Shown here piece by piece: positions 11,101 to 61,190 of a DNA stretch of 64,000 bases. A program made the position numbers and the translations under genes. Source of the stretch: Amia ocellicauda (taxonomy: Eukaryota; Chordata; Actinopteri; Amiiformes; Amiidae); NCBI RefSeq assembly GCF_036373705.1, contig NC_089856.1, positions 9,566,001-9,630,000 of the forward strand, in the 5' to 3' direction. Position 1 is the first letter of the stretch, and each line of letters opens with the position of its first letter. The notes beneath the pieces are model-generated. The model worked only from the letters and a program-made list of their open reading frames with translations, made no database searches and was not told the DNA's origin.

Positions 11101-14100
11101 GTGAAGTTGATTTGAAATCAAAAGGTAAACACAGGAAACCCCTTGCTCTTTGTTGAGCTCAGATACTTCCTCCAGGTCTTTCTAAACTGGCGCTAAACTG
11201 CTGGCAGCACAAACGGGGAAAGAATCCACATAGTGAACAAATGAGCTGAATGCCAATCCTTAATCCATATCGCAGCCCAAAAGCCACATTTCCTTTCAGT
11301 GAGGCTTCTCTCCCCCTCTTCTGCTTCTCATGGGATCAGTTTTAGTTAGGTGATCCCAAGTATTGTGTTTTTCTGGGAGAATGTAGTGTTCTATATTGGC
11401 ACAAAATGACCACCATGGATTAAAAAATGGCTAGAGAAATGTGTGTTTGCTGTCCTCCGCGGTGAGAGCGGGCGTTAATATCCTTCTGCTTTGTCTTTGT
11501 AGCGCTCCTCCAGACACCATGTTGACGGTCCCCCGGCTGCTGCCAAGAGATCACGTTCCTCTGGCAAGGCAGAAAAGGTATGGCCGGCCCTCCTCTCTTC
11601 CCAGGTTCACCTGTACATACACTTTTGGTACAAATGGAAGCCCTGCTCCCAGAGAGCCACAATCCCACACGTTCTACAAACCTCTCTAAACCAATCACTG
11701 AATAACTTGAACGTAGGTGGCTTTTGATTAGATTTGATCCCAAGTTATTCCTGGTAATTTTATGTAATCTTGTCCTTACCCTGCTTTAACACCTGACCCC
11801 TGACTATAGTACTATGATAAAGAACACTATGAAAAGTTCTAAGCAGTTGAACATGTAAAATCAGTGTTGTGTGATATCCTACATATCTGACAACCATATG
11901 AGTCTGTCCTTCATTTTAAATGGTGAAATTATCAATTTAAACTTGAGCTGAATACATGTGTGGAAATGTGTGAGATTATGATGCACAGATTGCAAGTCTT
12001 CACTGGTGTGATCTGGTTCCTCCAGGGCAATGAGTCCATCATCACGAAGACCAAAGTTACAGTCCCTAGCGATGGGGGTCCGATTGAGGCTGTTTCCACC
12101 ATTGAGACCGTACCCTACTGGACTCGCAGCAGGAGGAAGACTGGTAACTAATTCTGGGGGGGTATTTTGTTTGTACAGGGAATGTTGGTTTGAACCTCTG
12201 GGTTTTTCTATACTTTTTTTTGGTTTCTATGGGCTTTTATTTGGTTTGTTTCCAACTCTCCAAGCACCGCCCTACCAGTCTGTTGTGAACTACGCTTGTA
12301 TTCTTTTGTGAGAACCATCTTGGAATCCAATTTTTTATTTGGAAGGGGGGTGATTGTTGCCATTCCCTGTCATTCACTTAATCTCAATGCATTCATTTTT
12401 AAAGAATTGTGCCAGCAACATTGCCCCACGTTATATGACCTTGTTTTTGGTACACCTTGATCTTCATACAGTAAATGCTGCATGCACAAGAACAACCACT
12501 AGGCAAAATCACTAATCCAGTTTACTGGTGGATCTGTTTTGGCACTTTGTTTTTGCACGTGATTGGACGTTTTCCTTTGTATTTCTCTCCTGTCAGCTAC
12601 CCTGCAGGGCTGGGACTCTGAGTCGGGCCTGTCTGAGCACGCGGGAGAAAAGCAGAATCATCCGGAGCTGATACACCACGCCGAGCCTAGCACCCCTCAG
12701 GGCAACGGAGGCATTAGGCTGCATGAGTTCGTCTCCAAAACGGTACAGAGCAGTTTTGCTACCTCTGGCCTGATCCACCACCAGTTCACTTTCCTATTTT
12801 ACCCCCTCACACTGGCCTCCTCCACCCTAACCTCTCTTTTCAAATGTCAGAAACTGAATTAGCCAGTTTTAGACTGACGTGGTCGGGTCATGGAAAGCCA
12901 CTGCCACAATTTTCTTACTTACAAGATGTATTTTAGTCTCTGATCGGCTGATTTTAATGTCTGACTGTTTCAGTACCTGAACCAGTACCAGTACATGCTT
13001 GTCGTTGGTTGCCTCTCCGAGCCCTGCCGTGAGTTCTCCAGTGAGCAGGCCTGCTGTCTCTCCCCGTGCAGGTGATCAAGCCCGAGTCCTGCGTACCCTG
13101 TGGGAAGAGGATCAAGTTTGGCAAAATCTCTCTCAAATGCCGCGACTGCCGGGTGGTGGCTCACCCTGAGTGCCGTGAGCGCTGCCCCCTGCCCTGCATC
13201 CCCAACATGGGCAGCACCCCTGTCAGGATCGGAGAGGTACTGCAGGAGGAACAACTGTTTTCCTATCTTGTTTGTGTTAACTGATGGTATCACTAGAATT
13301 ATGCATAAAAACTGTTGCAGTTCGACTTATAGATCTGTAAAGTGTGTGGGTGGTGGATGAGAGTGTTTTGGCATTTTTAAGTCTTTTCAATTACTTTTGG
13401 TCTGGGATGTAGTGCATTGATTGACCTTGTCTGTTGTTAGGGCACCTTGGCTGACTACGTGTCCTCCAGCTCTCCCATGATCCCCTCACTGGTGGTCCAC
13501 TGTGTCAACGAGATTGAGCAGAGGGGCCTGCATGAGGTAAAAACAAGACTTGAGTTGCCAATCTTAAAAACTCTTAACTGGGTACATCCTGTACCGAGTC
13601 CACCACTAAATGCTGGACACCGTAACCTGGGTGGAAGATGCTAATGTGACGGACTTGTGTGTGTGGTCGTAGACGGGGCTGTACCGGCTGTCTGGGGCGG
13701 AGCGCACCGTGAAGGAGCTGAAGGAGAAGTTCCTGCGGGGGAAGACCATCCCTCTGCTCAGCAAGGTGGACGACATCCACGCCGTGACCGGCCTGCTCAA
13801 GGACTTCCTGAGGAACCTCAAGGAGCCGCTGCTGACCTTCCGGCTCAACAGGCCGTTCATGGAGGCTGCAGGTCAGGGCTGAGCGTGGTCTGGGCAGTCC
13901 TGGGGCAGATGGTTACCTCTCAACACGCCCTAGAGAGGGTTGATATCGGGGAATTAAAAAACGCATGCACATTAATCATGATTTTCGGGTGGGAAAGTTA
14001 AAAAGTAAAATCAAATGAAAGAAAAAATAGATTGTGCCAGTATATCTGCACAGGTTTGCAATCTAAAGCTATGTATAAAAATATTTTCTTAAGTGAATAT

Positions 14101-26439: not shown

Positions 26440-29400
26440 ATGGCGGAAAACAAGACAGCCGGAGGAGCGGGGTTGTTAGCCAAGAGATTCCAGAAACAGC
26501 TGAGTCGAGCGCAGGAGAAGGTAGGTACGGGGAGAGGGCAGAGAGGGGGTAGTGGGCACTGCCACACAGAGTTATTTAACTAGAGAATGCGTCTGTGGGG
26601 CGGTTTTGATCTTCGGACTGCAGTGACGCAAACGTGTCTGTAACCTAAACTTTTTTTTAGGTGGCTGTTATTTCTTAACGGCTGAAAGATTGCCGTCTCT
26701 AATTAACTGCCCTCCTCCACACCATGACCTCGAATCCGTCGTTGTGTTCTGGTACTTTGCATCGATGATCTAAAGCGAGAGCAAACTGCACTGGCAGGCA
26801 TGTGTTGAGTAGTGTGGTGATGATGGGGTCCTGGTGGAAAGAGAAAACGAACAACAAAAATGTGCAAGACTGATCTTGTGATGGGGGAGTCGGTGACTGT
26901 GCAGCCATGCACCCCAGCCCGATACACACGGGTGTAGGAGTAGCTACCTGGCACAGCCGTGCTGCAGCCAGAGGTGACGCGACTTTCAGGCAGTTAAGTA
27001 GCAAACTCTGGGCTTTGCCTTTTTAAACACAGATGAAAGTCTCTGTTCAAAAACACGCCCCGTCTATGAAGTGACTAGTGGAGCCTTATATGATAGTTTT
27101 TTTTTTTTTCTTAAACTCTTGACACTGTAACTTGAACATCCGGAGGAGAGCGCCGTTTTCTAGTGAAAGCGCGGTCATGAATAACCAGAGCCTGACTTCA
27201 CTTTCTGAGTCTTATGTGGCAGTCGGATGTACAGGAGTTTAGTCATTTCTGTCGTGTGCAAAACCCTGATTCAATCATCCGTCCACCCACAAGCCACCTG
27301 TCCCAGGGAAGGAGAGCAGAAATGTGTGCGTTACTTATGACACCATCACACATGGGAGTCATGCCTGTTTCACCGTGAGTCCCGTTTTGAAAGCTGAGGT
27401 GGCCGTCTATCTAAGACACTTTGTGCCAGTTATTCACTTCACACCGCAGACCTTTAATGAGTGCGTCTGGAGCTCTAGCTGTTGCTCACTCTATGGTTTG
27501 TTTACCCAGTCTCTGAATAACCACGCCTGCTCTCGACTGGTTGTTAGTAGGCGGGGGAACGCTGATCTCTCTGGGGACATTTTTGACACCTAAGCCGACG
27601 AATGCGAAGACTTTCTTGTACAGACCCAAGAATGTCTCGCTGGCCTTTCTTTAAGTAGGCCGCGCTTCCCTGCAGAGTTCGCTTTAACAATGACGAGGAC
27701 AAACGCAGAGCCACAGTCCAGCTCGAATAAGTGTGATTGCGTGTTAGATTTAGAGGCTGTGGTTCAGCCAGTATCTCTGACCTTGACTGCTGTATGCGAA
27801 ACCGTGCTCTTGCTCTGACTTATGTGACATCTGCTGTTGTACCCTTGAGCAAGGTACTGTAACTAGATTGCTAAAAACCCTGCTGTGTAAACGGGTAGTT
27901 GTATGTAAAAATAATGTGATGTACTATAACAATTGTAAGTCACCTTGGATAAGAGTATCTGCTAAGAAATGCAATAATACAAAGATAACCCAGAGACACA
28001 GAAGCAGTGTAGTAAAAACATTCAAAACTAGTATGATTTGCTTTACAGGTTACTAAATAAAACCAAGTAAGTGTACACTGAAATGCCCTGTTACTCACAG
28101 TAAGTGGGATTCATGCAGCAACCCTGAGTTCACCTATACATTTACCAGACAAGGTAGCAGCAGAGAAAGAAGTGGGCTATATGGAATTGTGCAGTTTACC
28201 ATCTTATTCTTTAAGCTTAAAACTTATTTCAGATACCCGTTATACTAATACTTGCTGGAGCCACTGCATACAAGATAATCTTAATTGTCAAAAGGTGGAA
28301 GAGAAGCCTGTGTACCATATTAAGTTAAGTTAGTGATTTTTCAGGTTTCTATAAATTAATCTTCCTACTGCATTTGGCCTTTTCTCTACTGTGCTAGATT
28401 TTCAATAATATCATAATTGCAATGTGTGATGTAAATCCTGATCTTACAGCCTTTGAATGCAGTTTAGCAGGACAAGTTTAATCTGTAGCCCTTGGACGGT
28501 TCATTAGAGGAAATGCAAGCCGTTGAAGGGATGTGTTCAGCTTTCTTTAAGGGAAATCTGACCTTCAGTCTAATGTAATGTCTCGGTTCAGACCTAGCTA
28601 GAAAAACTCTCTGCTGGAGACTTGCAGAATAACTTGGCTGGTCATAGATGCAAAAAACATATGGATTGTCTATGGCTGTGTATACGTGCTAGTCAGGAAG
28701 ATATGACGGCAGAGGTAGTGCCATGACTTATTTAAGGTGGTTGTGGGCCAGTCAGAAGCCTTACATCTCACTGTACATTTCTGGTACCAAATCCAAAGAA
28801 ACATTTGAAGACGTCGGCGTTTTATTATTAAGAAAGCATCCCTATATTGTGGCCTTTATGGATGTCTATGCAATTATCTTCTGATTGCCACTGTGTTTTT
28901 GCCAGAAGCAGCTGGCTGGACTTCCTTAAGTTTCCCTGATATTCAGAGAAGTTGCATTTGCTGAAAGACAACTTCTGCAGCTGCCAGTCTGCCTGTCTGT
29001 CTATCTGGCTAGCTGCTCTAAGAGGGGATTTTCCCAGGCTGCTGGCTCCTTCCTTCTACTGGCGTTTGCCAGGAACCTTCACTGGGAGCTATCCTCTTGA
29101 ACTGCTGACTCCTCTTCTAACCAAAACATCAGATCAGCTGACTTCTTATTTATACATCTCCATTTTTCTGTTTCTGCAAACTTCTTCGACTAAAGTCCTG
29201 AGAGACCTTTCCGTCCTCTTCCTGTCTGCCCTTCGTGTTTTCAATCATCTTGCAGCACAGCTGTGACAGGTGGCCGGCAGCGAGGGAGTGATCTTGATCA
29301 TGAGTGGGACGGCACCGCAAAAGATGGACGGCTGCGCGTGTTACTGCTCTCCCATCTCGGGGCTGTAAATAAGGAGATCCAAAGCCAGAGCATCAATCTT

Positions 29401-30909: not shown

Positions 30910-33900
30910 TGCACTTTTTTTTTTCTGCACAATACCGTTCTATAAATGACTTTATACCGTCATTGTACAATGTTTTGACAACATTACCTGGAGTCTACAA
31001 ATCTGTGTTGCCAAAACTTTTTTATGTTCTGTGATCACTTTAATTACTATGTTGCCACAACATTAATTAATTAAGCATAATAACCAAAAGCATAATTAGA
31101 ACGTGACCTTGCAACCCCTGGAACACACCACCCTTTTCGTTGTACAACCCTTTGGGAGAATAGGAAGCTAAGTTAACCGGTCGAGTGTTTAAGGTATAGA
31201 TTTTGTAACTAGAAGCTTCCTGGTGCAAACTCTCTCTCTCTTGGCACTCCCATACAGAACAAACCTATGTTTCATCCACCAAAACTGGCCCCCTTTCTTA
31301 CATTTAAAATGCAAGGGCTTCACTTTATAACTGTCTGGAATCCGTATATTGTATAGCTTCCAAATATGTGGTGAGGTTTAATTTCTACAATATATTTTCA
31401 GCAAAATGTCTATTACAGATTTGAAGGTAGAGATGTATCATTGACTAAAAGCTATATTTTAAATGTACAAAAAAAGGGGATTGATTTATACTCCTTAGTA
31501 TAGAAATCGCAACAGTGAGGCCGAGGGGGTAGGAAGTAAGAGGCTGCATTGAGATCCATTTCACACATTAACCTACACACACACACACTGCTCTTGTTTT
31601 TCTAGAGGCACAAGCCCTCAAGCACTCATCTTGCATCCCAACAAAGGATTATTTCCTGTCTAGGCCCGACTTGATGCCAACATCGACCGTGACCAGACCA
31701 CGACCGTAGACATGTCAAATGACAAAACTGCAAGTCTGATGCTTGTTGTTCAATTGAGAACCATAACTCTCCCAGGGTACCTTTCTGCATAAATGTACAG
31801 TTTGTTTTAAGCGTTGGGTGGAATAACATGGTTTCAAGTGAAGGGGGTGGCAAAACTTTTAACTGGCAGTGGTGTGCAACCCTCCCCCTTAGTGATGGGA
31901 AGAATATTGGGGCTATTGTTCAGACTTGTATCTCACAAGTCAGTCTCTCTCCGTGCGATGGCCTCTCAGGTTAATGCGCCGCTGACTATCTCTCTTTGCC
32001 TTTGCAGGTTCTACAGAAGCTGGGCAAAACCGTGGAGACCAAAGATGAACAATTTGAACAGTGCGCCCTGAACTTCAACAAGCAGCAGGTAACCCCTAAA
32101 AGCCTTGTAATCGGATCAGAAAAAAATAATCTAGAAGCGTCGTCTTCTCTTCTGCCTAGTGGTGCATATAATTGCATCAGGTGTCCACTCTTGGATCTTG
32201 AATCTGTCCCAGTTTCCATCCCTGCTCTCCCATCTATTCTCTAACTTCAGGGTATTCGGGCAGGAAACGCGTGACCTTTGTTACTGTGGGGAAATGCTAA
32301 GTTGTACTGCGTTCTCTCTCTGTACTGTTCACAGGAAGCCACACCTCCCTTCGAGCTCTTTCACCGTGTTCAGCACATTTCTGTGGCAGCTTATTCTTCG
32401 GATTCACAGCAAAAGACAAGTTCTGGGCTGGGCTTTGGTTTTGACACTTTCTGCTGAAGTATTGACACCCTTTTCACAGATGCTGTATCGGCTTGTGTTC
32501 CTACGCCACAGTCGAGCGCATTTACTTGCTCCGCCCACTCGCACCTTGGTCTTCCTTTGCGGTGAGGATCGGTCAGTGTTATCTAAGGGCTGCACTCTTT
32601 CTCTGTGAATTTCACATGAATTCCACAGCATACACGCGTACACATACACGCATACATACACATGTGCACAAACACACTTACACCATCACACTCGCACATG
32701 CATGTGCAAGTGCACGCATACATCTCTTCCATTGTTACTTTTTTTTAATCCAGTGCAACTGAAAAATGCTGATCTATCAAAATAAACACAATCTACACTG
32801 TCACGTGACGAGAAACCATCTTAAGTAACCAATAATCCAAGTATTAGGGAAAGTTAATGCATATCGGCCAAGGCTTTCTTGTAGATTGTGCGCCCATCCT
32901 TCTCGGTGGTGTGGTCTGTTGCTGGCAGACCATTGGCAATGGCGAGAAAATGAAGTTGCATTTAACATTCGAACATTTAACCAAAGGAAATGAAAGCACA
33001 CGGGTTGTAAGGTTCCTCTAGTGCTAGAGCTGTGGTGGAGGTCTTCCCTCGCTCCTGACTGAAGCCCCAGCCATGACTTTCTGTCGTGGGCAGACCTGAA
33101 GTGGAGGATTGGGTCCTAAATCCCTTGCACGCTAAACAAATCTGCATTCTTTTTTTCCTGCCTGAGATTTCAATCCTTTTAAATCCGTCTGCAAAAGAAC
33201 ACGAGAGAGAATGTACTGCTAAATCCCAAACATTGTTACAAGGCTTAGTGGGGCTTGGACTGGGGGGCCCGGCGGAAGCAAAGTATTACACAAAGTAAAA
33301 ACCTAGAATATGTGCACCATAGGTTTAAAAGGGCTCTTTGATCAATATACCACTAGCAGCCCTGATATTGAGTATAAGGCTCATTGTACTGATTCAAGAG
33401 CTCTACTGAGCATAGTAGTATTACAAATGTATACACCGTAATCACTCGATATATGTGAGGGTTGTGATCCTGGAAAACGTTGCGTAGGTGACAATTGCGC
33501 AACTCAAGGAGCATTATCACAGTTAAAAATGTGACTATATACGTTACTCAGACGCCATATTTTATACCTGTCACAGTCAATACATTATTCAGACACGATC
33601 TCAAAGTTAAAATTGGCTGGACAAGTGCCTCACTTTCCTCTCCAGAAGACAGAGACTGAATGTAGGGTGACGCTTCAGCAATGTCTCGATTACTCTGTGG
33701 TGCTCTCTAACGGTCTAAAGTTTTCGTAGTTCTACATTTCTGACGACACGATAAATGCATTTTAAATTTGAATACGCTTTAAATCAATTAATGTTAAATT
33801 CTTGGTCCTGCTCTTTGTGTTTGGGTCTGTTTGAGTTGAAATGTTCTGTTCAATCTTGAATAACATTTTTTTCACTTTGAATAAAACAAAAGGAGAAGGT

Positions 33901-36900
33901 TGTCCCAGTAAGCATATTTCTGGTTTAATTTTAGACTTTGATCCTTTGATAGATCTGCACCCTTTCAGGTCACTTAAGGAAACTTTCAAAATGATCACTA
34001 ACAGATCTTTCCTGTGCACCATCTACAGATCTGTTTCAAAGAGTTTTTTTCTGTGCACGTCAACTTGTTTGGGAGTATGAGTGTGATAAGATCCCTGACA
34101 CTGACCTAGAGCCTATGGCATTGAAAAGGATCTTGAGTTTAAAAAATATTTTTTAATTCTTACACCCATAAGAACCATCAAACCTTCAGTCACTAGTCTT
34201 CACACAAGTGGGCCGCCTGCAGAAAAAGGCACGGGGACTCGACCCAATACTGTTGCATTAGGTCCCGTTAGCTGTTTGAGTGTCAGGAACACAGCTGTCT
34301 CCAGGAATTAACGCCGGTTTCATTTTTTTCCCCTTCCCTTTGTTTAGAACGACGGCAACAAGTTGTTTAAAGACCTGAAGGCCTACTTCAATGCTGTAAA
34401 AGGTACTTTAATTTTAAATGTGCTGTCTCTCTTTTTAAGCAGGCTTACCGCTGTACATTTAATCTAATTGTCTCTTTCACCTGATTTAAAAGTGAATAGG
34501 GCCTGTGGTGGGTTTGAGGAAAGGCAGTCTGTGGTGTCATTTGTGGCATTTTAACTCTTCTGGTCTTGATTATCTCCCAACATTGCGTGCTACGAGTCTG
34601 ACAACACGGCCTGCAGTTTGCACGCTGCATGACTGAACTCTCACCCTGCCTCTGCTTAGATCCTCTTTCTTAATTGAGTGGCGGATTGTCCACATGCTGA
34701 ACTTGGCAGAATATGATGCTCTTTGTTCATTTCAATACGTTTCGGTCGAGTTCGAGGTGACCCTGAATCGGCCTTCAGCACAGGAGTGTCTAACTCCAGT
34801 CCTGGAGGGCCGGTTTGTCTCCTGGTTTTTGTTTCCAGACCAGCTCTCTGCTCCTTAATTGGTCTCCTTTAAACAATTAACTGGATGAATTAAACACTTC
34901 CCTGCCGACTCTGAAATTATCTCTGGGGACAATATATCTGGAGTAATCGACCTATTTGAAGCTATCGCTGTAAAACTAAAACATGAAAGTCTAGCTAAGC
35001 CTACCTGGGACAATAATGACATTAACTGAATAACTGAGAGCTTTCGTTGTGACAAAATCCTGCAGATACAGGACTGGAGTCTGACACCCCTGCATTAGTG
35101 TTCAAACTCGCACTCATTTTGGGCTGCCTGAGAACTAATTTCCACTGATTGTTGGCTTACAGTACACAGTAAAGCTAGCTTATACATGTATGGGATCGGG
35201 GTGATCTATCGGAGTCATCCAGTTTTCAACAACAATTCTGTGCACCTTAGAGTACTTATCAGCTTTGCCCATTAGTGTGTGCCTCCCAGCCTGGCACGAG
35301 ACACCCAGCTGAGGTTGGGTTGGTGTCTGCTCCCGTTTGGGTTTGGTGGTGTGCCGCATACACCTGCAGATCTCCCAGTCAAGGCTGCTTGATACGACAT
35401 GACAAGTCTGTCCGGAATATTCCTGATTCTCTCGTCAACCTACCCAGAGGAGGTTCCTGATGATTAAACACCAAGCACAAAAAGGAGCATGCACGAACGC
35501 ACACAGGAGATATTTATAGCATTGGGTGTGGATGTTCTCTGGTTAAATTTGCCACTTCCACTATTCATTGCTTTATTTTATATATATTTTTGGAAGAGGG
35601 CAGGGTATTGTAGATCTATGTTTGGTTATTCTGCATGACTCATCAAAACAAAAGACTTCTTATAGGCCCTATGCCAGAGGAAATGTGCTGAGGAAATCAC
35701 TTTCAAATGGAGTACCTCCTCCACAGGCATCTGTGCAGTGCAAGCTCCATGTATTATATTTTTATAAATCCTATTCTGATTGGGCCAACCCCCTGTATTT
35801 TCTCTCAGCCCCCCTAAAATAATATGATCATGAAGTAACGGCACGGTCAAACAGTTTGACAAAACACCGTCAGCCGCCCCTTGTATTTTCTCTCGACCCC
35901 CCTAAAAATAATACAACAAAAGAATCCAAGAATGAAGAAGTAACTCCGCAAAACACCGTCAGCAACCCACCCCCCGGCTCTGACAATGGAAAAAAAAATC
36001 CTGGACACCGTTTCAAAGCCCACCTAAGACTTGAAGTCTAGAAATGCCCCTGGGTCGTCCCCCCCTGGAGTTCTGTAAAGCCACTTATCTCCTAAGCTTT
36101 AGAGCACTGAAAACATGCCTTTTTCTACAGGCAAGTGATGGCCTGTGGTGATGTCCTGTTAGATTATAGATATTTTTTTGTTGCGGTCATTGTATTCTCT
36201 TATATTGGGATGTCTTATTTCTGTCAACCATGGGTGGAATGGCTCCCTAGATGAAAATGATGCTGATTTTCCCACCCTGTGCACTTGCCAAGCAGGCAGA
36301 GGCAATGCAGAAGTGGTTTACCCTTGCTCTCTATGGCCCTGCTGAGAGAGACTCGCTCTCGGTACCACTGTGCTATGCAACACGTTGACAAAACAGGAAA
36401 CCACAAAGGAAATTTGTTTGAACTGAACTGAGTTCACAGAGCTGAGGGTGGCTGTTTGTGTCTCGGGAACATCTACACTACTCAGTGCCCGGGTACACAT
36501 TACAAATGTACTATTAGTTTTAGCCCTATATGAAAGAACCACATATTATGAATCATTTATTTCATAGTCCTTATCCAGGGTGACTTAGTTTACACAAGAA
36601 GCATTACAAAAGTGCAGTAATACAGTCTAGAATTAAAGATTGTAAGTAATCTATAATTCTAGACTGTATTGCACTTTTATAATGCTGTTATGTTTTGTAA
36701 GTCGCCCTGGATAAGGACATCTGCTAAGAAATAATAATAATAAGTAGCTTACATCCTAGCAAGAAACACACTAAGCAATATTTCATAATGTATATTCACA
36801 TTAACTGCTCCATTTCAGTTTTCATATCGGGATCCTGCGTGGCGTCTTCTGTCTCCTTTCGCAAAGACTGCTAGTAGCAACAGAATGAGAGCTTGCGGTT

Positions 36901-39900
36901 TTGAACTTCTCCTTAAAAACGGGCAAACCACACACAATCCTAATACCAATAAGGAAATGGAGCGTTTTCCGTTAATAAACAAACTTCTGTGAAATTAGTA
37001 GGCCTTTCATGCTGTATAGCCAGATTGTCTCTCTTGTTCGGGCTGCCCTGGAAGTTGGGCACACCAGCTCTGTATCTTAGACCTCTCCGTTGATGCCCCC
37101 CACAGTAATGCACGAGACCTCCAAGAGGCTGTCGCAATCCCTGAGGGACGTGTACGAACCAGACTGGCAAGGAGGGGAGGACCTATCTGTCATCATCGAT
37201 GTGAGTATGTGCTCGATACATTTCAGCATGCGTGTAGTCTGGGAGCCCCTGGTTTTCGTACAGGTTGCCGTCTTCTGAGTAGGGGGTAAGCTGGATCTGT
37301 CTGTCTTTGTCTCCAACACAGAGTGAAGACCTGCTCTGGAATGACTGCGAGGAAAAGATGGCAGACCAGGCGGTCCGAACAATGGAGACCTACATGGGCC
37401 AGTTCTCTGAAGTCAAGGTGGGTTCAGACAACACTCCCTAACCTTGTGAATACCTCCTCTGTCTCAAAACTCCAAAATACATGTGAAATGTGTTTTGATT
37501 TTTGAATAAAGTGCATCAGACCATGCAGTGGCTTCAGAGAGGTACAAGTTGTGAAATGCACACAGACGAGACCAAAATTTATCATAAAAGTATAAAACAA
37601 TAAGAGAAAATAAATAGAACGAGGGAGAGATTGGGAAACTGAGCAGGCAATATTGAATACCCGTGCTACGTGTGATTAGTGTAGATTAGAACGGTTTTCA
37701 GTTTCTTACAGGAGAAGTTTGGAGGTCAGGTGAAGTTCCACCGGGAGTGAGAGAGTTTGTGAATGATATAAAACCTTAAAATATTAAATTAAAAATGCAA
37801 TTACAATAACCTAGTACAATGTAAGGAGCCTGTGAGATGTATTTATACCAATCCCCTTCTCTCTCCCTCTCTCCAGGACCGGGTGGCCAAGCGCGGCAGG
37901 AAGCTGGTGGACTATGACAGGGCCCGTCACCACCTGGAGGCACTACAGAGCACTAAGAAGAAAGATGAAGCCAAAGTGGCCAAGGTGAGAAGTGAGGGGT
38001 GGGGGCAGGTGTCGGGTGCAGTGGTTGCAGAACCGTACAGAGCCTCTGTTTCTCAAGATCCCCATAATAAAGCTGGTTATTAGTCTTCAGTTACATATCC
38101 AGTTTTGTTGTAATGCGTCACATTTGCCCTAAATCATTGTGAAGTTGGATTTTTTTTTATTTTTTTATCCAGTTTATTTAAAGCTGAAATTAGCCTTGTG
38201 GATATGTCCATTTCTGAATGCATTTACAAAGATCTGAGGGCCAGTCATGGGGTGTTTTTTATAGAATTGCTCACCTTTAAGACTCCATGAGGGGACGCAG
38301 AGTGGGGACCTAGTCAGTTGGCCAGTGTGCGTGTAATTCTTAGAGGGCAGAAAGATGTATTGACCCACAGCTCAGTCAGCCACGTCATTTTTGTTTTGTC
38401 AAAAAACCACCCAACCGAGGAGGCTTGCTCTTAACAAATCTTTCCTTTCAACGGAAGACTGAAACCAAGGGCACACTTGACTAGCTGTTGACTAACAGGT
38501 GCTTCACTCCATTGCAGTTTAAAGGGCATCGTTTCAATGCAAAGAGATTCTTAACAGACACACGATTGGTCGTTGGATCGTTGTGATTTAATTGAGAAGC
38601 GGAACATTAAAGCTTTAAAGGAGAGAAGACATAAATGTCAATAAATGGAAGTCCTTAAAAAATCCTTTGTTTCCTCTAAAGCAAAGCCTTTGGTCATCAG
38701 AAGAGATGATCTCAAAATGGATGTACATTATCTGAACGCTAAATCGCCCTTGTGATAGTATACGGGTCCATTAAAGATCCAGTGCGATGGAGTAAGTCTG
38801 GAGTATTTTGTCCGCCTGATGTGACACATTGCCAGGATACACCCCACTGCTCTGTGTAACTGACTCGTTGTTTCTCTCCTGCATCCAGGCAGAGGAGGAG
38901 TTCAACATGGCGCAGACAGTCTTTGAAGAGATCAACACGGAGCTGCGAGAGGAACTGCCAGCTCTGTATCACAGGTGGGCCGAGAATTTGATTTTGATAG
39001 ATCAGTAAGGTTGGTCTATATTCTGCATGGATCCAACTTGTGCTTTTGCTTGCCCCCCAACGCAGCCGAATTGGATGCTACGTGACCGTGTTCCAGAACA
39101 TTTCCAACTTGAGGGATGTTTTCTACAAGGAGATGAGTAAAGTAAGCTGCGGATTTTACTTTATTGCTCTCCCTCCCTGACTCTCTCCCACCCTTCCTCC
39201 GTCACTCACTTCCTCTCTGCTCTGTTCCAGCTGAATCATGAGCTGTACAATGTGATGACCAAACTGGACTCCCAGCACTCGGACAAGGTCTTCATCATTA
39301 AGGGTGTTACTGGGTAAGAGCACTGACCTCCACAGAGGCAAGGCCGCCCGCACCATGGGTTGGCTGTTGATTTTCTGTGCTCTCTACCTGCTTCTTAATC
39401 ATCCGTCCACATCTGTTCCTTAATTAAATGCCTGGTATTCAACCTTTCTCATTTTGCCTGTGGCGAGAGCTGAATGTGTAATTGTCACTGGAGAGGAGAA
39501 TTATATATGTCACCAAAAAAGGAAATGCCACTGTCTGCCATGGGGACACAAGGTTTTGGGCCCCTCTTCCCTGGCTCTGTTGATTTTGAGAATAAGGTCT
39601 AAGAGGATCAGAAATACTGCTTCAGTTTCAGTGATGATGGACCAAAACAAATTCCCAATGATCCCTGCATGTCTGATTTGGAGGTCTCATTGGTAATAGT
39701 CAAGTCTTTCTTAGTAGCAAATGTTCTAGGCTTTATGAATCAAAAATCTAAATTCCTATTTTTGGTAACATTATTGTCGGGGTGTGACACTCCCCCCTGT
39801 TTGGTACAGCTCTGCTGGCAGAGAGCAATGAGAGTGTCCAGGCATAACTTACTCTATCTCCTTCCTTACTTCCAGCAGTAAGAGGCGCTCTCTCATGATT

Positions 39901-42514
39901 TCTGCACCCATCCCCTGCAACACCGCCTTCCCCCCATCGGAGATCAGTGCGGATCTGAGCCCCTCCGACTCCTCCGCTTCCGAACCACATCAGAACGGAA
40001 AGGTGCCCGACTCGGCGAGCGGGGAGGACCAGGGCACTCCGGCCGAGGCACATGCCAATGGGAGCACGGAGTCACCCAAGCTTCCGCCCAGCACTGATGA
40101 AACCTCTGAGGTTAAGGGAGAGGGAGCCCACTCCAGCGGCAAAGACGTGCCAGCTCTGGACCAGGCAGCAGAAACTCAGGAGTCGGATGAAGATGGGGGC
40201 CAGGAACCTGGTGATGCCCCAGAGGAGATTGTGATATCCACTCAAAACTCGGACGAAAACGCTGTTCAGGAAGAGATCAGTGACACCTCTCTCTCAGTCC
40301 AGGGGAGCGAGAGCATGGCTCCCACCGAAAACAGCCCTCCTGCAACTGAAAGCCCAGATGCTCCTCTACACGCCTCCACTCCCTCCTCTTCCGAAGCCCT
40401 GGAGCCCAAACCAGAGGAAGACCCTTCAGATCTCCAGGACCTTGTGCCTGTTGCCCCCCAGGATCGCACTCCGGAGCAGGCCTCCATCCCAGATGCTCGG
40501 GAGGATCCTGGTCCTAGCCAGGCTGAGGAATCGGAAGCCCTAGCCAGCCCCGATCCCCAAAAAGACGTCCCCCAGGAACAGAGTGTTGGAGGTCAGGAGC
40601 TTCCTGCTGGATTCCTGTACAAGGTAGGAGAGTCTCGAGAGGAGAGAAATTACACTGTCGGCTTCTGTTTGGGTCATATGAATCATCATCATCATAATTA
40701 ATCATCGTAATCCTAAACGGTATAATGCAAAATGATTTATTTGGCAGATGCTTAATCCAAGGTAACTAGATGGACAATATAGTCAATTATCAATACTGTA
40801 TTTACAATGTGATATTACATCAGTGTTTTGACTTCGTTTGCTGGGCTCAGTAGAAAGTTTCCTCTCTTCATCCTTTTTCAAACACAAACTTTTATTTATT
40901 TCTTTATTAAACTACAGTGTTAATCTGCACGATTCAAAATAAAGTACCTAGTTTACATAGTAAGGCACATTCTTGTCAAATCATTCTGTATTTTCAGGTA
41001 GTGTGCATTTAGTGTGAATCGAAACTTAATGACAGGGATGTTTCAGATTTTACTTCCTGGGAATGGCACTAGCTAGTCACCTGAATCGGTCGACTTGCAA
41101 GACTGCAGACTCCAATGAATGGGGCTTGTTTGTGTTTCCATTTTTTTTCTAGGCTGTGGCCTTGAAGGAGCAGGCGTCGGAGGAGGCCGGGCAGCTGCGG
41201 TTTCAGGAGGGGGACGTCATTCTCGTCCTCGCTGACTCAGAGCAAGGGGTGAGTTGGCGGGGGGGGGCGGTTTGGGGAACAATACATCATTGTTTTTGGT
41301 CGGCTGAATGAATCTGTGATCATCAATGCATGACCTACCTGACTGCATTTTTCACAATAGGGAAGTGCAATTGTAACAGGGCTCTTGAATATGTGGTGAT
41401 GTCACTGCCCCTAGACTAGGTAGAGTGTCGGGGGGGGAGGGTGGGCGGGGGTTGTGGTGGACGGCGCGGATCGGGCGCTCTGTGGGGGGTGCCTGTGAGG
41501 ATCTGAACAGGGTCTGACCATGTACGCTACGCAGCCACACACGCACGGCTCCGTATCCTCTCCCGTACCGAGCCAATAAAAAAAGAGCCTCCACTGGTAA
41601 CCCGAGACCATTTGCTTGTATTTTAGTTATTGTCAGACTGTGCGGATTGAGGTTTGAAGTTGTGGATTCTGTGATGCAACCGCACAGAAGCACAGCTCAG
41701 AGAAGGGATAGGACATGGTCTGGTTTAATGTAAGACTACATATGTCGATATACACCATTGAGTTAATCGACATGTAGATCTATATTCGGCAAACATCCAC
41801 ATTATGATCAAGTATATGTGAAAAAATAATAATAATTTGGATTGCCAGGGGATGCTTTCCTTGCAGTGAGTGCTACTCGGAGGGTATACATTGCCACCTA
41901 AAGGCCAATATGTACAACCACATTGTTTAATAAATAAATTTTGATTTTTTTTTTATTTATTTTCTCCTGGTCTTCTTACCATTGTAATGTTGTGTGTATA
42001 TTCCAGCAGCTGTATCTGTAGTACCTCAGCTATTTCTAATTTGTAGGACCATGCTCACGATCGGGCCACACTTCCTGTAACTGCTTCCTGAAAGATTAAT
42101 ATTATGGATGAAACTTTGTGCAGTGTTTTGTACTCTTTATTCACATGACCTAGGGCTGCATATCGGTGTTTTGCACTTTTCTGTATGATGTAATGCTTTT
42201 GAGCTTTACTGGATAAGGGCATTCATTAAGAAATCGGTAATAACAAGTACGAGAACCAGAAGACACTGCAGACTTCAAGAAATGGAGTTCCAGCCTTTTG
42301 TGCTAAATAAATGACCAAGGATTATCCTAGTAATTATTGTTGCTGCTGCTGGGACTCTTCTCAGTGCTGGGATGCTATTGATGTTTCTTTACTCCCTCAG
42401 CCTGAAGGCACGGTGACTGGGGTGAAAGAGAGAGACTGGCTTCAACACAAGAGTCTGGGTGATCACACTGGGACCTTCCAGGAGTCCCTTACCAAACCAC
42501 TGGACTCTGAATAG
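26440..42514 (+). CDS. BIN2: Bridging integrator 2 (N-BAR protein) with degenerate C-terminal SH3, complete, 12 coding exons
   Basis: Coding exons: 26440-26520, 32008-32088, 34348-34402, 37106-37200, 37322-37417, 37877-37984, 38889-38974, 39066-39141, 39231-39313, 39876-40623, 41153-41248, 42401-42514. They join in frame to 572 codons plus stop; human BIN2 is about 565. BIN2 senses and makes membrane curvature in leukocytes and platelets (podosomes, phagocytosis). Residues 1 to about 250 are the N-BAR domain: amphipathic start '[20 protein letters not shown]', then '[19 protein letters not shown]', '[10 protein letters not shown]' and '[19 protein letters not shown]'. Exon 10 encodes about 250 residues rich in Ser, Pro, Glu and Asp, presumably disordered. 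Exons 11-12 encode a tail that aligns with the BIN1/amphiphysin SH3 ('GFLYK', 'GDVILVL', '[11 protein letters not shown]') but lacks its key aromatic residues. Placement beside SMAGP and DAZAP2 supports BIN2 over BIN1 or AMPH. Exon 10 has a tandem CAGCAG acceptor (39875 or 39878). Confidence 0.95.
27810..28010 (+). repeat. SINE copy with 3' tail, BIN2 intron 1
   Basis: The segment contains 'cttgagcaaggtactgtaa' followed by 'ttgtaagtcaccttgg' and 'tctgctaagaaatgcaataa'. This order is typical of a tRNA-related fish SINE with a LINE-derived 3' tail. The boundaries are approximate. Confidence 0.6.
28011..30870. other. BIN2 intron 1, nothing recognised
   Basis: I find no exon, RNA gene or nameable element. 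The open frames are short and lack splice context. A repeat-like GC-rich segment near 29830-30050 cannot be assigned. Confidence 0.4.
30877..30907. repeat. Poly-A tract
   Basis: About 31 adenines in BIN2 intron 1. Confidence 0.9.
32626..32722. repeat. CA/CATA-rich low-complexity tract
   Basis: An imperfect purine-pyrimidine alternating stretch built from 'acacgc', 'cacatac' and 'tgcac' words in BIN2 intron 2. Confidence 0.75.
33430..33600. repeat. Possible short DNA-transposon-derived repeat
   Basis: The stretch beginning 'cactcgatatatgtgagggttg' (33444 on) followed by 'gtgacaattgcgcaactcaag' has the look of a non-autonomous DNA element in which the same CG-containing words recur with variation. 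I recognise the style but cannot name the family. The right boundary is not visible. Confidence 0.3.
34779..35093. mobile_element. Short inverted-terminal-repeat element (family 'CTGGTCCTGGAG'), BIN2 intron 3
   Basis: The left end reads 'caggagtgtctaactccag' and runs into 'tcctggagggc'. The right end, reverse complemented, reads 'gcaggggtgtcagactccag' and runs into 'tcctg'. These are imperfect terminal inverted repeats of about 28 bases around a 250-base A/T-rich interior containing 'ttaattggtctcc' and 'aacaattaact'. There is no coding capacity. Related ends occur at 48576-48706 and 49945-50150. Confidence 0.6.
35788..35964. repeat. Tandem duplication of an approximately 88-base unit, BIN2 intron 3
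   Basis: Two adjacent copies (about 35788-35874 and 35876-35964) share 'cctgtattttctctc' or 'cttgtattttctctc', then 'cccccctaaaa', 'gaagtaac' and 'aaaacaccgtcagc'. Copy 2 carries small internal changes. Confidence 0.75.
36555..36740. repeat. Large palindrome made of opposed SINE-tail-like arms, BIN2 intron 3
   Basis: The left arm (about 36555-36633) is the reverse complement of the right arm (about 36655-36740) over about 80 bases with moderate divergence. The perfect core is 'agtctagaatt' / 'aattctagact' around a loop of about 20 bases. The outer part of each arm is the SINE-tail sequence 'gtcgccctggataagg' and its complement. The right end runs into AAT repeats. The element could be a foldback or MITE type, or a head-to-head pair of SINE tails. 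Confidence 0.75.
40722..40815 (-). repeat. SINE-tail-like fragment, BIN2 intron 10
   Basis: 'tttatttggcagatgctta' followed by 'atccaaggtaacta' resembles the reverse-oriented SINE 3' tail. It is short and diverged. Confidence 0.4.
41249..42400. other. BIN2 intron 11, repeat-bearing
   Basis: A G-rich block at 41265-41500 precedes A/T-rich sequence. Near 42190-42250 'ttactggataagggcat' and 'cattaagaaatcggtaataa' look like a plus-oriented SINE tail. I see no further exon between the two SH3-tail exons. Confidence 0.45.
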
Positions 42515-48332: not shown

Positions 48333-51074
48333 ATGACGACCATCACACCCAGCACAAACATGGGTAAGGGATGTGATCAATGGCTCTTATTGAGTGTGTG
48401 TTTTGTGTGTTAATAGCAGGGCTCTAAACCCTTATCCCGGAGAGCCCCAATCCCTCGAGTTTCATAGACATCTTGAATTGGCTACAGATCAGTGTAACCT
48501 GAGACTAATTAAGCTAGTTATGCCCAGTTATGGTATTAAAAGATTGGCTGGGATGAGAACCACAAGACCTTCTAGCACAGTGCTTCTCGCCCCTGGTCCT
48601 GGGGCCCCCACTGCCCTGCTGGTTTGTGTTCCAGCTACGCTCTCAGTGACTCATTGAATCCATCTGGACGGTGGCTCCCTAGGACCAAAGTTGAGAAGCA
48701 TTGCTCTAGGATTTCAGGACCAGAGCCAGGGAACTCAGGATTATGAAGGATCATATTTTCAATCAACTACACACATGTCAAGAAGGAAAAGGGTGTCTTC
48801 CAGTGAATCCTGTGTTCTAATTAACTTAATTAACTGAACCTCTCTGTGGGCATGCAAAGACAGTCCCTGCATTGAGGTGCACTCTCTATTATTGAAGCCT
48901 GCTTTTTCTACACGCGCAAATACGTTCATCGTATTGTACGTTTCAGTTGGACTAACATAAAAATGATTAAAAAAAAAAAAAAAAAAGAACATCCAAAATG
49001 GCTGAATCACAAGAGGAAAGCTGCCTACTGAGGAAGATAGTTCCTTATCTAGGCTTTGAGGGTACATTTCAGGTTTTTTTTTAGACACCCTCAATTCATT
49101 GACCAGACTCATTTCTTTGAAATGCAATACAGTGTTTTTCTTTCCATGTTCAAAACAAGTCCAGCAAAGCCCTTCTCTCTCCCCCTCCCCCAAAACCAGA
49201 TTAAAATATATCAATATTTATCTTCTCTATTTTCTGTGCTGCCGTTGTCTCGTGCCAGATTTGCACAATTCAGCTTTTTCAGATTTGCTGCTGGGGGAAA
49301 GAGGGGAAAAAAAGTAGAGACATTTTCTCTCCAAGAACCTTGGTAAAATCTGTTTGCATTCTCCTGGCTCTGCCAAGAAACCACTGCTGTTGGCCTGGGG
49401 GAATAAAAACAAACTACTGTTGTTTCCCTACCTGGTAGAAACGGACTGGTTCGGCAGCTCTCTCCACTATGTAGCCAAGGCTCCAACTGACAATGTCCCG
49501 TGGGCCAGGCATTGAAGCAGGCAGTTTACCTGAATGCCAGCCAACAGTAGGAGCTGCATATTGTATGTTCATTAGTTTCTTTTGAGTTTGCATAGGTGGA
49601 AGATTGGAATTATAATCTGAAACAAATTGCAGCATCGGTTGGATCTGGTTAGTGGATCAATAAAAGCTGTGAGGGCTGCACCCTCACCATGTATAAGAAC
49701 TGTTAATCCATAATCCCTGGGCATTACTTGGATCTTGTGAAGAGCTGCACAATTATATTAACCTTCGATTTTTATTATTTCCCGTTTCTTGTCTAGCAGT
49801 GACCACCCCTGAGCCGCCCCCCCAGCTGAACTCGGCTGTGATCGGAGGTAATGTTGCTGAAAAAGGGGAGGGCGAGAGGGTGGGGAGTCTTGTATTTTTT
49901 ATTTCTTTCCTCCAGAGTCATATCACATAGCCAGATATATCTAGTCCAGTGGCTCCCAGCCCTGGTCCTGCAGAACTCTCTGTGTCAGCTGGTTTGTCAC
50001 TCCAGCTCCATGGGCAGCTACTTAACCTAACCTGTCTCCACCGGTTTAAGAGCTGAAAACCATGACTAGGTTGGAATAAGACCATCATGAGTTAGGAGAT
50101 CAATTGAGTTAACGAGCAGAGACGGGGAGTCCAAGAGCAGAGCTGGGAACCTAATCTGATGCATAAGCAGGATATTAACAAAAACATGTTCTATTATAGG
50201 AGAAATGGTCAGGAGTTCAAAAATACTTAATCTCTTAACCTACATATCTCACCTTCCGGTTGTTTAATTTGTAATGCAGAGATAGGTTGAGTGTAAACCA
50301 ATTTAACACAGAATGCCCCATAAGGCAAACCACAAAAACCATGCCAGATGGTGGAGGCTGGAGCCCTGTGGGGAATGTGGTGCTTTGTGGATTGAATGGG
50401 GCTGTCCACAAAGACAGAGCACTTACTTGCAGCAAGCTCTTGAATGGCCACCTCAGGGTAGCGCTTGCATTGCCGATCAGCTCAATGTCCCAAAGACTTC
50501 AGAAGTCCGTTCGTATTGATCGGAGTTTGGACCAGTGCCAGTGGGCAAACCATCGCACTTAATTTTAAGGTCCGTTCACACCGGGTACGGTGCAGATAGC
50601 CACGGCACAGTACAACACAATTGGATAACCCAAGTTTTTGAGTCCGGACGTTCCTCTGCTTGTGTGTGATGGAGTGACTGGGAAGCAGTGTGTGGTAGGG
50701 AAGGGAGGGCCTGGAAATAGCATTGGTTTGTATGACTTTTATTATTTGTGGCACTTGGCACTCCTAATCACCCAGAAAGTACAGTGCTTGGTCCATTAGA
50801 ATAGTGCGAGTGGAGACCCCAGGACTAGACAAGAGACAGGCAGATGGGCTTGGCATGCAGTGTCATGGGATGAGGTAAAGCTGGTGTGCCTGTGTTTGCA
50901 GTGGTGATCGTGCTGGTCGTACTAACGCTGGCAGGCCTGGGCTTCCTGCTGATCCGTTACCTGTGCCACAACAAGGGGGCCTACCGGACCACGGGAGAGC
51001 CAGCCCCGGGAGAGGAGCTGGAACAGGGGCCGATCGACAGCAGCGCGGAGGAGAAGAAGGAATATTTTATCTGA
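48333..51074 (+). CDS. SMAGP: Small cell adhesion glycoprotein (SMAGP), complete, 3 coding exons
   Basis: Coding exons 48333-48363, 49800-49847 and 50902-51074 join in frame to 83 codons plus stop; human SMAGP is about 97. SMAGP is a small single-pass membrane glycoprotein of epithelial cell junctions. A short Thr/Pro-rich extracellular stretch ('MTTITPSTNMVTTPEPPP') offers O-glycosylation sites. A membrane span follows ('VVIVLVVLTLAGLGFLLIRY'), then 'CHNKGAYRTTGEP' and an acidic tail ending 'EEKKEYFI'. The human protein has the same layout, with 'KGSYVTYEP' after the span and 'EKEEYFI' at the end, so the match is secure despite weak extracellular similarity. There is no cleavable signal peptide, as in the family. 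The middle exon has a tandem TAGCAG acceptor that can add one Ala. Confidence 0.92.
48420..48545. repeat. Diverged dispersed-repeat fragment, SMAGP intron
   Basis: 'gcagggctctaaaccctta' followed by 'tcccggagagcccc' and an interior with 'gactaattaagctag' resembles the left end of the ITR family. It is degraded. Confidence 0.35.
48576..48706. mobile_element. Inverted-terminal-repeat element with candidate TCTAG target duplication, SMAGP intron
   Basis: The left end reads 'tgcttctcgcccctggtcct'. The right end, reverse complemented, reads 'tgcttctcaactttggtcct'. TCTAG lies directly on both sides (48571-48575 and 48705-48709), consistent with a 5-base target-site duplication. The 130-base element is non-coding. 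Confidence 0.6.
48965..48986. repeat. Poly-A tract
   Basis: A run of about 18-20 adenines in the SMAGP intron. Confidence 0.85.
49945..50150. mobile_element. Inverted-terminal-repeat element, SMAGP intron
   Basis: The left end 'ggctcccagccctggtcctg' pairs imperfectly with the right end, which reads 'ggttcccagctctgctcttg' on the other strand. The A/T-rich interior includes 'gatcaattgagttaacgag'. It is about 205 bases long and has no coding capacity. Confidence 0.55.
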
Positions 51075-57324: not shown

Positions 57325-60300
57325 TTACCAGATGGTGTAACCCCCGTTGGAGCCGCCCATGAAGAAGTTGCCCTTCCGCTGTGTCATCATCACGTTGGCA
57401 CCCTGCATGGCAGCGAGCTGGGCTGCGTTCGGGAGGTGTCCGGGGGGAGGGGGCTGTGGAGACAAGGAACACCCCCGTCAAACTCCCTTTCAAACACCCA
57501 GGCTGTCATTAATAGGATGGAAAGGACAAGGTGGGACAAGACAATACTTTTCTTCTTGCTCCTGAATCCAGCTAATTGTTCTACACTGTGTAAGGAACTA
57601 AAACATTTTTATTTTGTACCTCTTGTACCTACACAGGCCCAGATTAAATCAAACCCGAATAGTGAATGCCGACTCCCTGCTGGGGCTGAAGCAAGGTGAT
57701 CTCTGCCGAAGACAAGCAGTGATCAAGTGAAGTGTTATTATTATTGCCGATTATCTAATCTGCACCCTTGTCTCTTGCTAAAATCTGCCATCTTTTACAG
57801 ACGCTTTTCATCTTCAAGAGTCAGCATGTGTGTGTAGATAATCACACTGTGTATATAAATCACATAACTTTAGATCTTGGCAGTGTATAGAAAGTACAAA
57901 GCAATAAGACCTGAATATAAGAGGATGAGGCCTAAATGTAGGGTTTTAGATCTCTAAGAGGAAATTAATCCTAAATAGTCCAGGAGCTGTGAGGCAGCAG
58001 TGCTAACCACTGCCCCATGCGGTCTCTGTCTTTCTCTCTCAATGAGGATTATGTGCCAGGCCTCTCTGTACAGGTTGATCAATATACGGGATCTTTCCAA
58101 ACTGACTTCGATCCTGAGATCAAAGGGCTCTGATGGGCTGAATGACCAGTTCTAAATCACCTTTTTCTTCCTGTCATATCAGCAGTACAGGGCCTCTTTC
58201 CATCCATAGTAACCACTCATGAGGTTACTGTGTGAAGCAGAGCTCTCCAGTTAATGCACACAGCTGGCACACTGTGTGGACCACAGTGTAAAATGACAAC
58301 TCTTTTGGTTTCCATTTTTATACTTGCTAGCAGGTGTCACAGATTGACCACTAGCTAACTAGTTAAATATTAATGCATCTATCCAGATTGTACCAAAAGC
58401 TAGAACTGACTTTTTACTTAACTTAATTCCAGTCCAATTGAAAAAACCCTAACTAACAACATTTTCAATTGATTAAAGCCATTCAAGTCACTGAGGCTGT
58501 TTTACTGCATTACAAAGATGGGGGCAACCACTCTGGGCAGGTCAGGAGATGTAGACAGTACTCACTGGGATGGTCGCTGAGCTGCCAGCTCCAAAGCGGG
58601 CACCAGCATCATAGCCCCCTTCCACCAGCACCGTGGAGCCAGGGGGGTAAAGAGGTCCCATTGGGTAATACGCCATGGGCACATTGGGACCGACGGCTCC
58701 CACTGGCATCGACTGGGCAAGGGGCACGTACATTTGTGTCCCGGGGTAGGCAGAGGACATCTGGGGCAGGTGGCCGGGGGCCTGGGGGGGGTGCATGTAC
58801 CTGGGCTGGTAGATCTGTCAGACAGACAGAGACAGAGACAGAGAGAGATGCCAAGTTAGTAGGGGGTTAGGGAGACACACTAGAATTGCATTTGAACAAA
58901 CCACTGAGTTGACTGTTGAGAGTCTTAAGGGACTAAGTTAGGGCTCCTGAAAAAGCATTGAACATCTCTGCATGTTGCTAGAACAGTTTAAAGTCGACCA
59001 CGAGCTTCAACAGTCCTCAGGTGTCCCAGTCACGTCTCTGCTGCGGAAATGGTCCAAAGCTCCTGACAGAGGCTCTGTGATGTCAGACAGGCAGCAGCCT
59101 TGCACGTTTAAGATTAAGCACCATTACAGACTGGATGCTTAAGACCGCTGTAGCATCACAAGGGTGATACGAGACTCTTAAACCTTATGGGTTTGATTTA
59201 TTTAATGCTAATGATTTAACAACAATAGAAACAATAGAAAGTCACAGTTTGGTTCAGTTTTTGCGCTTGCTAGATGCAACCCCTTTCAAAACTACCCATT
59301 ACAAGTGCATTTAGATACAAACACCCATTTTGCTGACCCTTAACCCTGAACGTACACCCCCAAACCCCCAACAGTATTACAATTTATACCAGTCATTCGT
59401 CAGATGCTTTTCATCCAACAGGATTTAGAGAGGTGAGAAGGTGAAGCAGGCAGAGAACTGCTACCACAGAGTCACTGACACTAGGATTGCAGTTTGACAC
59501 CTCATGTGAAGGCCAGAGCAGTCTCAGGGTTCAGTAACTCGCTCATGGCAACACAAGAGCGACAGGGTTTGGGATCAAAAACGTAACCCATCGAAAACTC
59601 TTCCTGGGGATGAAGGTTATTGAATAGGAAATGCGCCCCACCCTTACCCCGTTTCACCCCCCATCACTCCTGAAATGGTCACCTGAAAGCCCCACATAAC
59701 AATAACAAGACATCAATCTAAATAGAAAATGAAAAAGAAATGCACTTTGGTTTGCTTGAAAGGAGAACAATTCCAACTACATATCATTTTATAAAATAAT
59801 ATTTTAGACAGGGGTGAAAAAGTAACCTGTGTGGTGAAGTGAGCAGGGATTAAAAATAGTGGCAAGATATGATACTTGAAAATAAATTCATAAATAATTC
59901 AAAAACAAATGTGAATCTAAGGTGGTCACCTTGTCAACCATGTTCAAAATGTTAATATAAAGATGCCTTGATTTCCTCTGGCTTTAGGCCTCATGTTCTG
60001 CAATGGGCAGACAGGGACCAATAGAGGTCCTTAGAAAGCGGCCACAGGGAGGCCTCCATAAACGCCTGAACAAAAATATCCCCAGGAGAACCCGGATATC
60101 AAACCCACACCCTGCCCAACACAAACCCTGACGATACAAGGTAGGCAAACCGACCGTATCATTAGATTTGCTATGGTTGCTTCTGTGATTAAAACAAGCA
60201 AAAAAGACTGTACGGTTATTGATGTCAGTTTAGACTGGGTTGGCTCCCTACAGAAAGTGATGATTTGAAAGGGGGTTCCCCAAACAAGAGCTAGCTTGAG

Positions 60301-61190
60301 ACCCTACCTTTCAAATCATTCGTTGACATGCAGCAGCCAGAAAAATAATGCTTCTCTACTTTTAAACACCTCCAGACTATAGAGAAACTGGCAACTTCCT
60401 TTTTTAATAGACAAAAAAATATATAATAAAACAATTGATATAATCTATCCATTTCAAATGAGGGTTCAGGGAGTAAAACTAATTAGAAATGAACACACTA
60501 TCAAATTAATCCTGCAAATAACCAGTTTTCTACAAGAAAAGGTGAAAATGAATCCCCAGAATTCACCCTCTGCAGGGGTAGGGAGTGAAGGCAGTCCCAG
60601 GCTGCAGGTCTTACCTCAGAGTAGGCCGGGGGAGCGTCGGAGTAGGGGGGTGCCTGGGTGGGCACCTGCATGCCTGGTGGGTACAGACCTGCGGAGGTCT
60701 GCTGGGGGGCGTAGGCGGGCTGTTGGGGATACGCACCTGAAAGACGAGACAAAATTCACCCATTAGACCAAAATGCCCAGGCCAAGACAAACCTCATCAC
60801 AATCCCCACACTGGACATGGTATTGAGAAGGGCCAGCCCTGTAGGGTGACTGGGGTACACTGAATTCTTCCACTTACAAAGAAAAACAAGAAAGGTTCCC
60901 CGGGTTCAACATTCACAACATATGCACAGACGAAAAGGCACTTAATTTCAAACAAACACACATTATTCCAATTTATACCACTCGATGAAATTTTGAAGCC
61001 ACTGACTTAAACAAATCTTTGCCTTTTTCCAAGCCCTGTATAAATAGGGTGTTCTGAATTCACCTTTGTAAACATCTAACTGTTCTTTAGGCTGGCCTTT
61101 CTCTGCTCTGGTCCTGGAGTACGGTCTACATTTCTGCGGAGTTCTCAATTACGTCATTCAAACCTCACCTGAAGTAACAGCTTTGTTCAT
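57325..61190 (-). CDS. DAZAP2: DAZ-associated protein 2 (DAZAP2/PRTB), 4 coding exons, first exon tentative
   Basis: Minus-strand exons: 61190-61169 (tentative), 60736-60615, 58814-58566 and 57453-57325. They join in frame to 173 codons plus stop; human DAZAP2 is 168. The last three exons are secure. They encode 'AYPQQPAYAPQQ', then 'QAPPYSDAPPAYSE' (a PPAY WW-binding motif), 'SMPVGAVGPNVPMAYYPMGP', 'YPPGSTVLVEGGYDAGARFG' and the C-terminal 'GNFFMGGSNGGYTIW'. These match the Pro/Tyr-rich DAZAP2 adaptor, which binds WW, SH3 and ubiquitin-system partners and shuttles between cytoplasm and nucleus. The first exon reads MNKAVTS before a perfect donor (cttcag|gtgagg) in the right phase. It resembles the family start 'MNSKG' with a four-codon insertion, but it lies 1.2 kb from the CpG-rich promoter candidate and its start context is weak. 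Confidence 0.88.
57960..58150. repeat. Dispersed-repeat fragments in DAZAP2 intron 3
   Basis: 'ctgtgaggcagcagtgctaa' followed by 'ccactgccccatgcgg' is a phrase typical of fish and shark SINE-like repeats. Further on, 'gctctgatgggctgaatga' is another common one. Both are fragments. Confidence 0.45.
58815..60614. other. DAZAP2: DAZAP2 intron 2
   Basis: There is a short (GACAGA)n stretch next to exon 3 at 58818-58845. A SINE-like segment lies near 59385-59590 ('cagatgcttttcatccaaca' at the left, 'caacacaagagcgacagggt' at the right). Nothing else is recognised. Confidence 0.4.

Follow-up and report, generated by a model that had tools for sequence, protein, structure and literature searches.

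The BIN2 gene of Amia ocellicauda encodes an amphiphysin-type SH3 tail whose peptide-binding groove residues are replaced

The window, i.e., the whole 64,000-nucleotide stretch of Amia ocellicauda DNA analysed here, was found to carry a complete BIN2 gene of 12 exons (26440-42514, + strand), which encodes a protein of 572 amino acids and in which 11/11 introns are bounded by GT and AG. The exons are listed in Table 1 together with the other features of the window. We take the exons with C1 and RhoGAP domains to be those of RACGAP1, and the open stretch with a membrane-spanning segment presumably resembles SMAGP.

Table 1. Exons of BIN2 and neighbouring features, in positions of the window
Feature	Position	Strand
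C1 and RhoGAP domain exons (more exon-like stretches from about 8170)	13045..13879	+
BIN2 exon 1 (start codon, N-terminus)	26440..26520	+
BIN2 exon 2 (BAR)	32008..32088	+
BIN2 exon 3 (BAR)	34348..34402	+
BIN2 exon 4 (BAR)	37106..37200	+
BIN2 exon 5 (BAR)	37322..37417	+
BIN2 exon 6 (BAR)	37877..37984	+
BIN2 exon 7 (BAR)	38889..38974	+
BIN2 exon 8 (BAR)	39066..39141	+
BIN2 exon 9 (BAR region end)	39231..39313	+
BIN2 exon 10 (acidic linker and first SH3 residues ELPAGFLYK, 40597-40623)	39876..40623	+
BIN2 exon 11 (SH3-like domain, first half)	41153..41248	+
BIN2 exon 12 (SH3-like domain, second half, and stop codon)	42401..42514	+
Open stretch containing a membrane-spanning segment (Pfam: no match at E 0.01)	50874..51074	+
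DAZAP2 exon (PF11029, E 3.1e-20)	58542..58817	-
Proline- and tyrosine-rich open stretch, second DAZAP2 exon by eye (no Pfam match at E 0.01)	60501..60755	

The Pfam BAR model matched residues 1-254 of the BIN2 protein with 121.7 bits. The PDB chain closest to the N-BAR part was that of BIN2 (4avm, which we take to be the human protein; E 2.4e-109), followed by those of BIN1 (E 1.1e-89) and AMPH (E 1.6e-86), and 164 of the 230 aligned BAR residues were identical between the window BIN2 and the solved BIN2 chain. A scan of the BAR part against NCBIfam, a prokaryotic library, gave no match. The linker encoded by exon 10 comprises 250 residues, including the last nine, with which the SH3 starts. 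It is acidic (52 Asp/Glu versus 12 Lys/Arg), and a pattern search of it detected no class I or class II PxxP motif; simple patterns for the clathrin box and for AP2 motifs likewise gave none.

The 385 contigs (988 Mb) of the window's own genome were searched for relatives of the BAR region and of the BIN2 tail. The BAR search returned 11 matches, of which eight fall in the window gene and the others outside it (one on contig C22, two on contig C2), and no second BIN2 was detected in the genome, the BAR matches being confined to these three places. Downstream of the BAR matches, the SH3 exons of BIN1 (C22; L027 and L028) and of AMPH (C2; L035) were recovered. The BIN1 SH3 of this genome was identical to the solved BIN1 SH3 at 53 of 74 residues, and the AMPH assignment of the C2 gene agrees with the solved AMPH chain. 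The window BIN2 is a gene distinct from the BIN1 and the AMPH of the same genome. In the BIN1 SH3 of this genome (L027:8287-8388, C22), the Gly that precedes the Asp of 'GDVVLV' was also seen to be replaced by Arg (KARDVVLVI).

The earlier note had read exons 11-12, together with the last codons of exon 10, as an amphiphysin-type SH3 domain, and both the exons and the similarity were borne out. The exon 10/11 and exon 11/12 junctions are in phase 0 with GT/AG borders. The donors of introns 10 and 11 each matched 7 of 9 bases and their acceptors each had 11 pyrimidines of 12, values that lie inside the ranges of the other nine BIN2 introns (donors 6-8 of 9, acceptors 8-12 of 12). The reading frame of the tail is open, and the two alternative frames contain three and four stops; the in-frame TAG in one match of the genome search is the acceptor of intron 10 and lies outside exon 11. 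The 78-residue tail that results matches the BIN1 SH3 almost end to end, and its best PDB match by phmmer was the BIN1 SH3 1muz (E 4.7e-12). The alignment scores of the tail were 106 against BIN1 and 101 against AMPH, compared to 50 and 57 for the best shuffles, and the real score was reached by 0 of 5000 shuffled controls for BIN1 and by 0 of 5000 for AMPH. The similarity of the BIN2 tail to amphiphysin-type SH3 domains is far above chance. When scanned alone, the tail missed the cut-offs of three Pfam models, SH3_1 (20.0 < 22.9), SH3_2 (18.0 < 21.8) and SH3_9 (17.6 < 30), all of which were exceeded by the BIN1 and AMPH SH3 domains of the same genome. An annotation that relied on the Pfam cut-offs would overlook the SH3-like domain of BIN2.

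The positions of the introns within the domain were also compared. The first SH3 intron lies after the same Lys in BIN2, BIN1 and AMPH, the second lies immediately before the (E/A)G(W) stretch in all three, and both are in phase 0. Since the positions and the phase are identical, the common descent of the SH3 domain, which stands at the same end of the three proteins, is secure. When the genome was searched with the BIN2 tail (E up to 10), seven matches were obtained: three in the window gene, two on C6 and C20, and two weak ones that fall on the final SH3 exon of BIN1 (E 3.3) and that of AMPH (E 5.7).

The BIN1 numbering was anchored at Y531, with which the nine variant residues of PMC11245310 land on the correct letters. 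The BIN2 residues at the sites equivalent to BIN1 529, 531, 537, 538, 562, 585, 587, and 588 are K, Q, G, Q, T, Q, S, and L, respectively. BIN1 and AMPH agree at seven of these eight groove sites, whereas BIN2 agrees with either of them at none, and the aromatic groove and the acidic specificity residues of a canonical PxxP binder are kept by BIN2 at 0 of 8 sites. The three motif changes that the earlier note had pointed out (HDY to KEQ, EGW to EGT, and PENF to QESL) are all present, and two further changes were found in the RT loop, where D537 and E538 of BIN1 are replaced by Gly and Gln in BIN2. Groove sites 538 and 587, as well as the list of ten core positions used below, are our own assumption. 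PMC11245310 places Y531 and D537 in the interface of BIN1, and sites 529, 562, 585, and 588 were mapped by motif from the residues named for Fyn and Src in published papers.

To compare the groove with the rest of the domain, we considered the 37 columns that are invariant in the BIN1 and AMPH of this genome and in the solved BIN1. BIN2 keeps 0 of the 7 groove columns and 20 of the 30 others (Fisher p 0.0019), a contrast in which the groove set is derived from the literature, yet three of its motifs had already been flagged in the earlier note. With the six paper-derived groove positions alone, BIN2 keeps 0/5 versus 20/32 of the others (p 0.014). When conservative changes were counted as kept, the corresponding values were 0/5 versus 28/32 for the six-position set (p 0.0003) and 2/7 versus 26/30 for the eight-position set (p 0.005). 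The weakest contrast, which was obtained with the columns common to the BIN1 and AMPH of this genome and the six positions, was 0/5 versus 21/38 (p 0.0485). Each of the groove residues examined is lost, and the residues elsewhere in the domain are preferentially retained. Of the ten core residues, BIN2 shares eight with AMPH, seven with the solved BIN1, and six with the BIN1 of this genome, and the Phe equivalent to the core F584 of BIN1 is retained. In the available text of PMC11245310, the F584S variant of BIN1 loses binding in vitro and its fold is thought to be destabilised, while full-length F584S BIN1 continues to recruit DNM2 in cells. Since recruitment persists in that variant, we regard the retained core Phe as a soft indicator.

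According to the same source, the Y531S and D537V variants of BIN1 had no detectable DNM2 binding in vitro and showed weaker recruitment in cells; over many peptides, their binding was weakened and reshuffled, not ended (PMC11245310). Since BIN2 has lost the Y531 and D537 sites together with the groove Trp and Pro, dynamin-type binding by the BIN2 SH3 is unlikely. Judging from the residues at the groove, PxxP binding has probably been lost in the window BIN2.

Mammalian BIN2, which the earlier note had described as having no SH3, is confirmed to be without one in PMC3527510, the available text of which also describes it as without dynamin binding. The N-BAR part is alike in the two, but the SH3-like module of the fish BIN2 is absent from the mammalian one. 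The mammalian tail has two consensus PxxP sequences and binds the SH3 domains of alpha-PIX and endophilins (PMC3527510, in the part available); such ligands are present in the human BIN2 tail, whereas the fish linker has none of class I or class II. The same text reports BIN2 from zebrafish and frog, with no mention of an SH3 in them, and states that BIN2 was not seen where clathrin-mediated endocytosis takes place (PMC3527510). In the literature on the BIN2 SH3 and its evolution, we found no report of an SH3 in a fish BIN2, which is weak evidence of absence.

It can be considered that the SH3 is a relic, from which constraint was lifted once BIN2 gave up dynamin recruitment, and that its exons are drifting toward the SH3-less mammalian state. 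The SH3 of BIN2 evolves faster than its BAR, with branches of 0.86 and 0.41, about twofold (the BAR values being from solved chains and the SH3 values from this genome), a larger ratio than those for BIN1 (0.19 and 0.15) and AMPH (0.42 and 0.26). When the eight groove columns were left out, the BIN2 SH3 branch was 0.65, and the groove accounts for part, not all, of the excess rate. Between the BIN2 tail and BIN1 and AMPH, pN was 0.37 and 0.40 and pS was 0.76 and 0.91, with the synonymous sites saturated; the low pN beside a saturated pS points to a long past constraint and would be compatible with a later release. Furthermore, neutral simulation from the BIN1 SH3 at 0.3-0.5 substitutions/site gave mean identities of 51% and 35%, which is about the observed identity to BIN1 (31/74), and 13% and 6% of the runs were free of stops. 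Since neutral runs are sometimes stop-free, the open frame alone does not decide between constraint and decay. The scores below the cut-off in all three Pfam models, the absence of the domain from mammalian BIN2, and the description of the C-terminus as the most divergent part of BIN2 across species (PMC3527510, in the part available) also favour a relic. Against it, the frame is without stops and the splice sites are sound, and the changes cluster in the groove, with 26 of the 30 other invariant columns identical or conservatively changed. This contrast between the groove and the rest is the main argument against plain decay, and we consider that a relic is unlikely, while it keeps an appreciable weight. 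The claim of the earlier note that the fold is still encoded under constraint while the groove is lost held in that the SH3 exons are in frame, the groove is gone and the rest is preferentially kept; its suggestion that the tail may be decaying fits less well. The intermediate state that the earlier note proposed would be one of two readings of this single BIN2 sequence, in the other of which the groove was lost privately in this lineage and not ahead of the mammalian loss of the whole domain.

The BIN2 SH3 may also still bind peptides, with an altered, non-PxxP specificity and by the same or another face. Atypical, proline-independent SH3 ligands are known (PMC10453029, in the part available), and the effect of the single BIN1 groove changes described above is more to reshuffle peptide binding than to end it (PMC11245310). 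However, BIN2 is changed both in the aromatic pockets and at the acidic site that sets specificity, and we hold a retained peptide binding to be improbable. That exons 11-12 are unused and translation continues from exon 10 into intron 10, where a 25-codon extension precedes a stop, is very improbable in view of the sound splice signals, the preserved frame and phase, and an SH3 similarity that spans three exons.

A known SH3 domain offers a parallel. The SH3 of Caskin1 has been solved and folds without the groove, three of the aromatic sites being occupied by Lys, Arg, and Leu, and its lipid-binding surface is separate from the altered groove (PMC7830187, in the part available). In the SH3 domains of Caskin1 and BIN2 alike, the first aromatic site is Lys and the site of Src Y136 is Leu, and in both the Trp and the specificity-pocket Asp are replaced (the mapping from Src to BIN1 is our own), but the Trp site holds Arg in Caskin1 and Thr in BIN2. 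As in a grooveless SH3, the key groove residues of BIN2 are substituted. Caskin1 belongs to another protein family, so that the likeness is a parallel and not kinship, and lipid binding is known for Caskin1 only.

We therefore favour, with moderate confidence, the explanation that exons 11-12 and the last codons of exon 10 form BIN2's own amphiphysin-type SH3, which has lost the PxxP groove, has probably kept its fold and serves a role other than that of the groove. From the sequence, we infer that this domain is translated and folded, and that a role independent of the groove constrains it. By analogy, the best reading of its function would be an SH3 constrained for a non-PxxP task, like the grooveless SH3 of Caskin1. 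The faster evolution of the SH3 than of the BAR, the Pfam scores below the cut-offs and the neutral simulation were counted against this explanation, as were the incomplete agreement at the ten core positions, the weakest of the groove contrasts (p 0.0485) and the softness of the core Phe as an indicator.

As for the mechanism, a BIN2 N-BAR dimer, or a BIN1-BIN2 heterodimer, would shape the membrane with no dynamin recruitment by the BIN2 subunit. The grooveless SH3 may then serve for a contact that is either internal or faces the membrane, comparable to that of the Caskin1 SH3 with a lipid, the exact contact being a guess. BIN2 heterodimerises with BIN1, according to earlier work cited in PMC8065113, and the amphiphysin SH3 is described as acting on dynamin by multivalency in the available text of PMC6773865. 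Since the one acts by multivalency and the other forms heterodimers with BIN1, the valency could be reduced by a subunit whose SH3 does not work. A bolder speculation, which we doubt, is that selection fixed BIN2 as a grooveless-SH3 amphiphysin in non-teleost ray-finned fish; when paired with BIN1, it would halve the working SH3 domains per dimer and thereby restrain dynamin recruitment through valency, and it would stand midway from a full amphiphysin to the mammalian BIN2 that has no SH3. A BIN2 with the domain but without the groove would show that the binding of partners can be lost before the domain, and the fish BIN2 would be a natural test of the use of an SH3 fold without its ligand site.

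The genomic setting of the genes was also considered. With 150 of 156 candidates scored, four Hox13 homeodomain loci were found (85-97% identity, the next best being 60%), each on a separate contig (C10, C7, C3, and C22). Four such loci give no sign of the teleost duplication and suggest a non-teleost fish. In the same set of 150 of 156 scored candidates, the AMPH contig C2 had no entry in the Hox13 list, and the contigs of BIN2 (C7) and BIN1 (C22) each carried a Hox cluster. The location of BIN2 and BIN1 on Hox-bearing contigs fits an origin by early vertebrate duplications.
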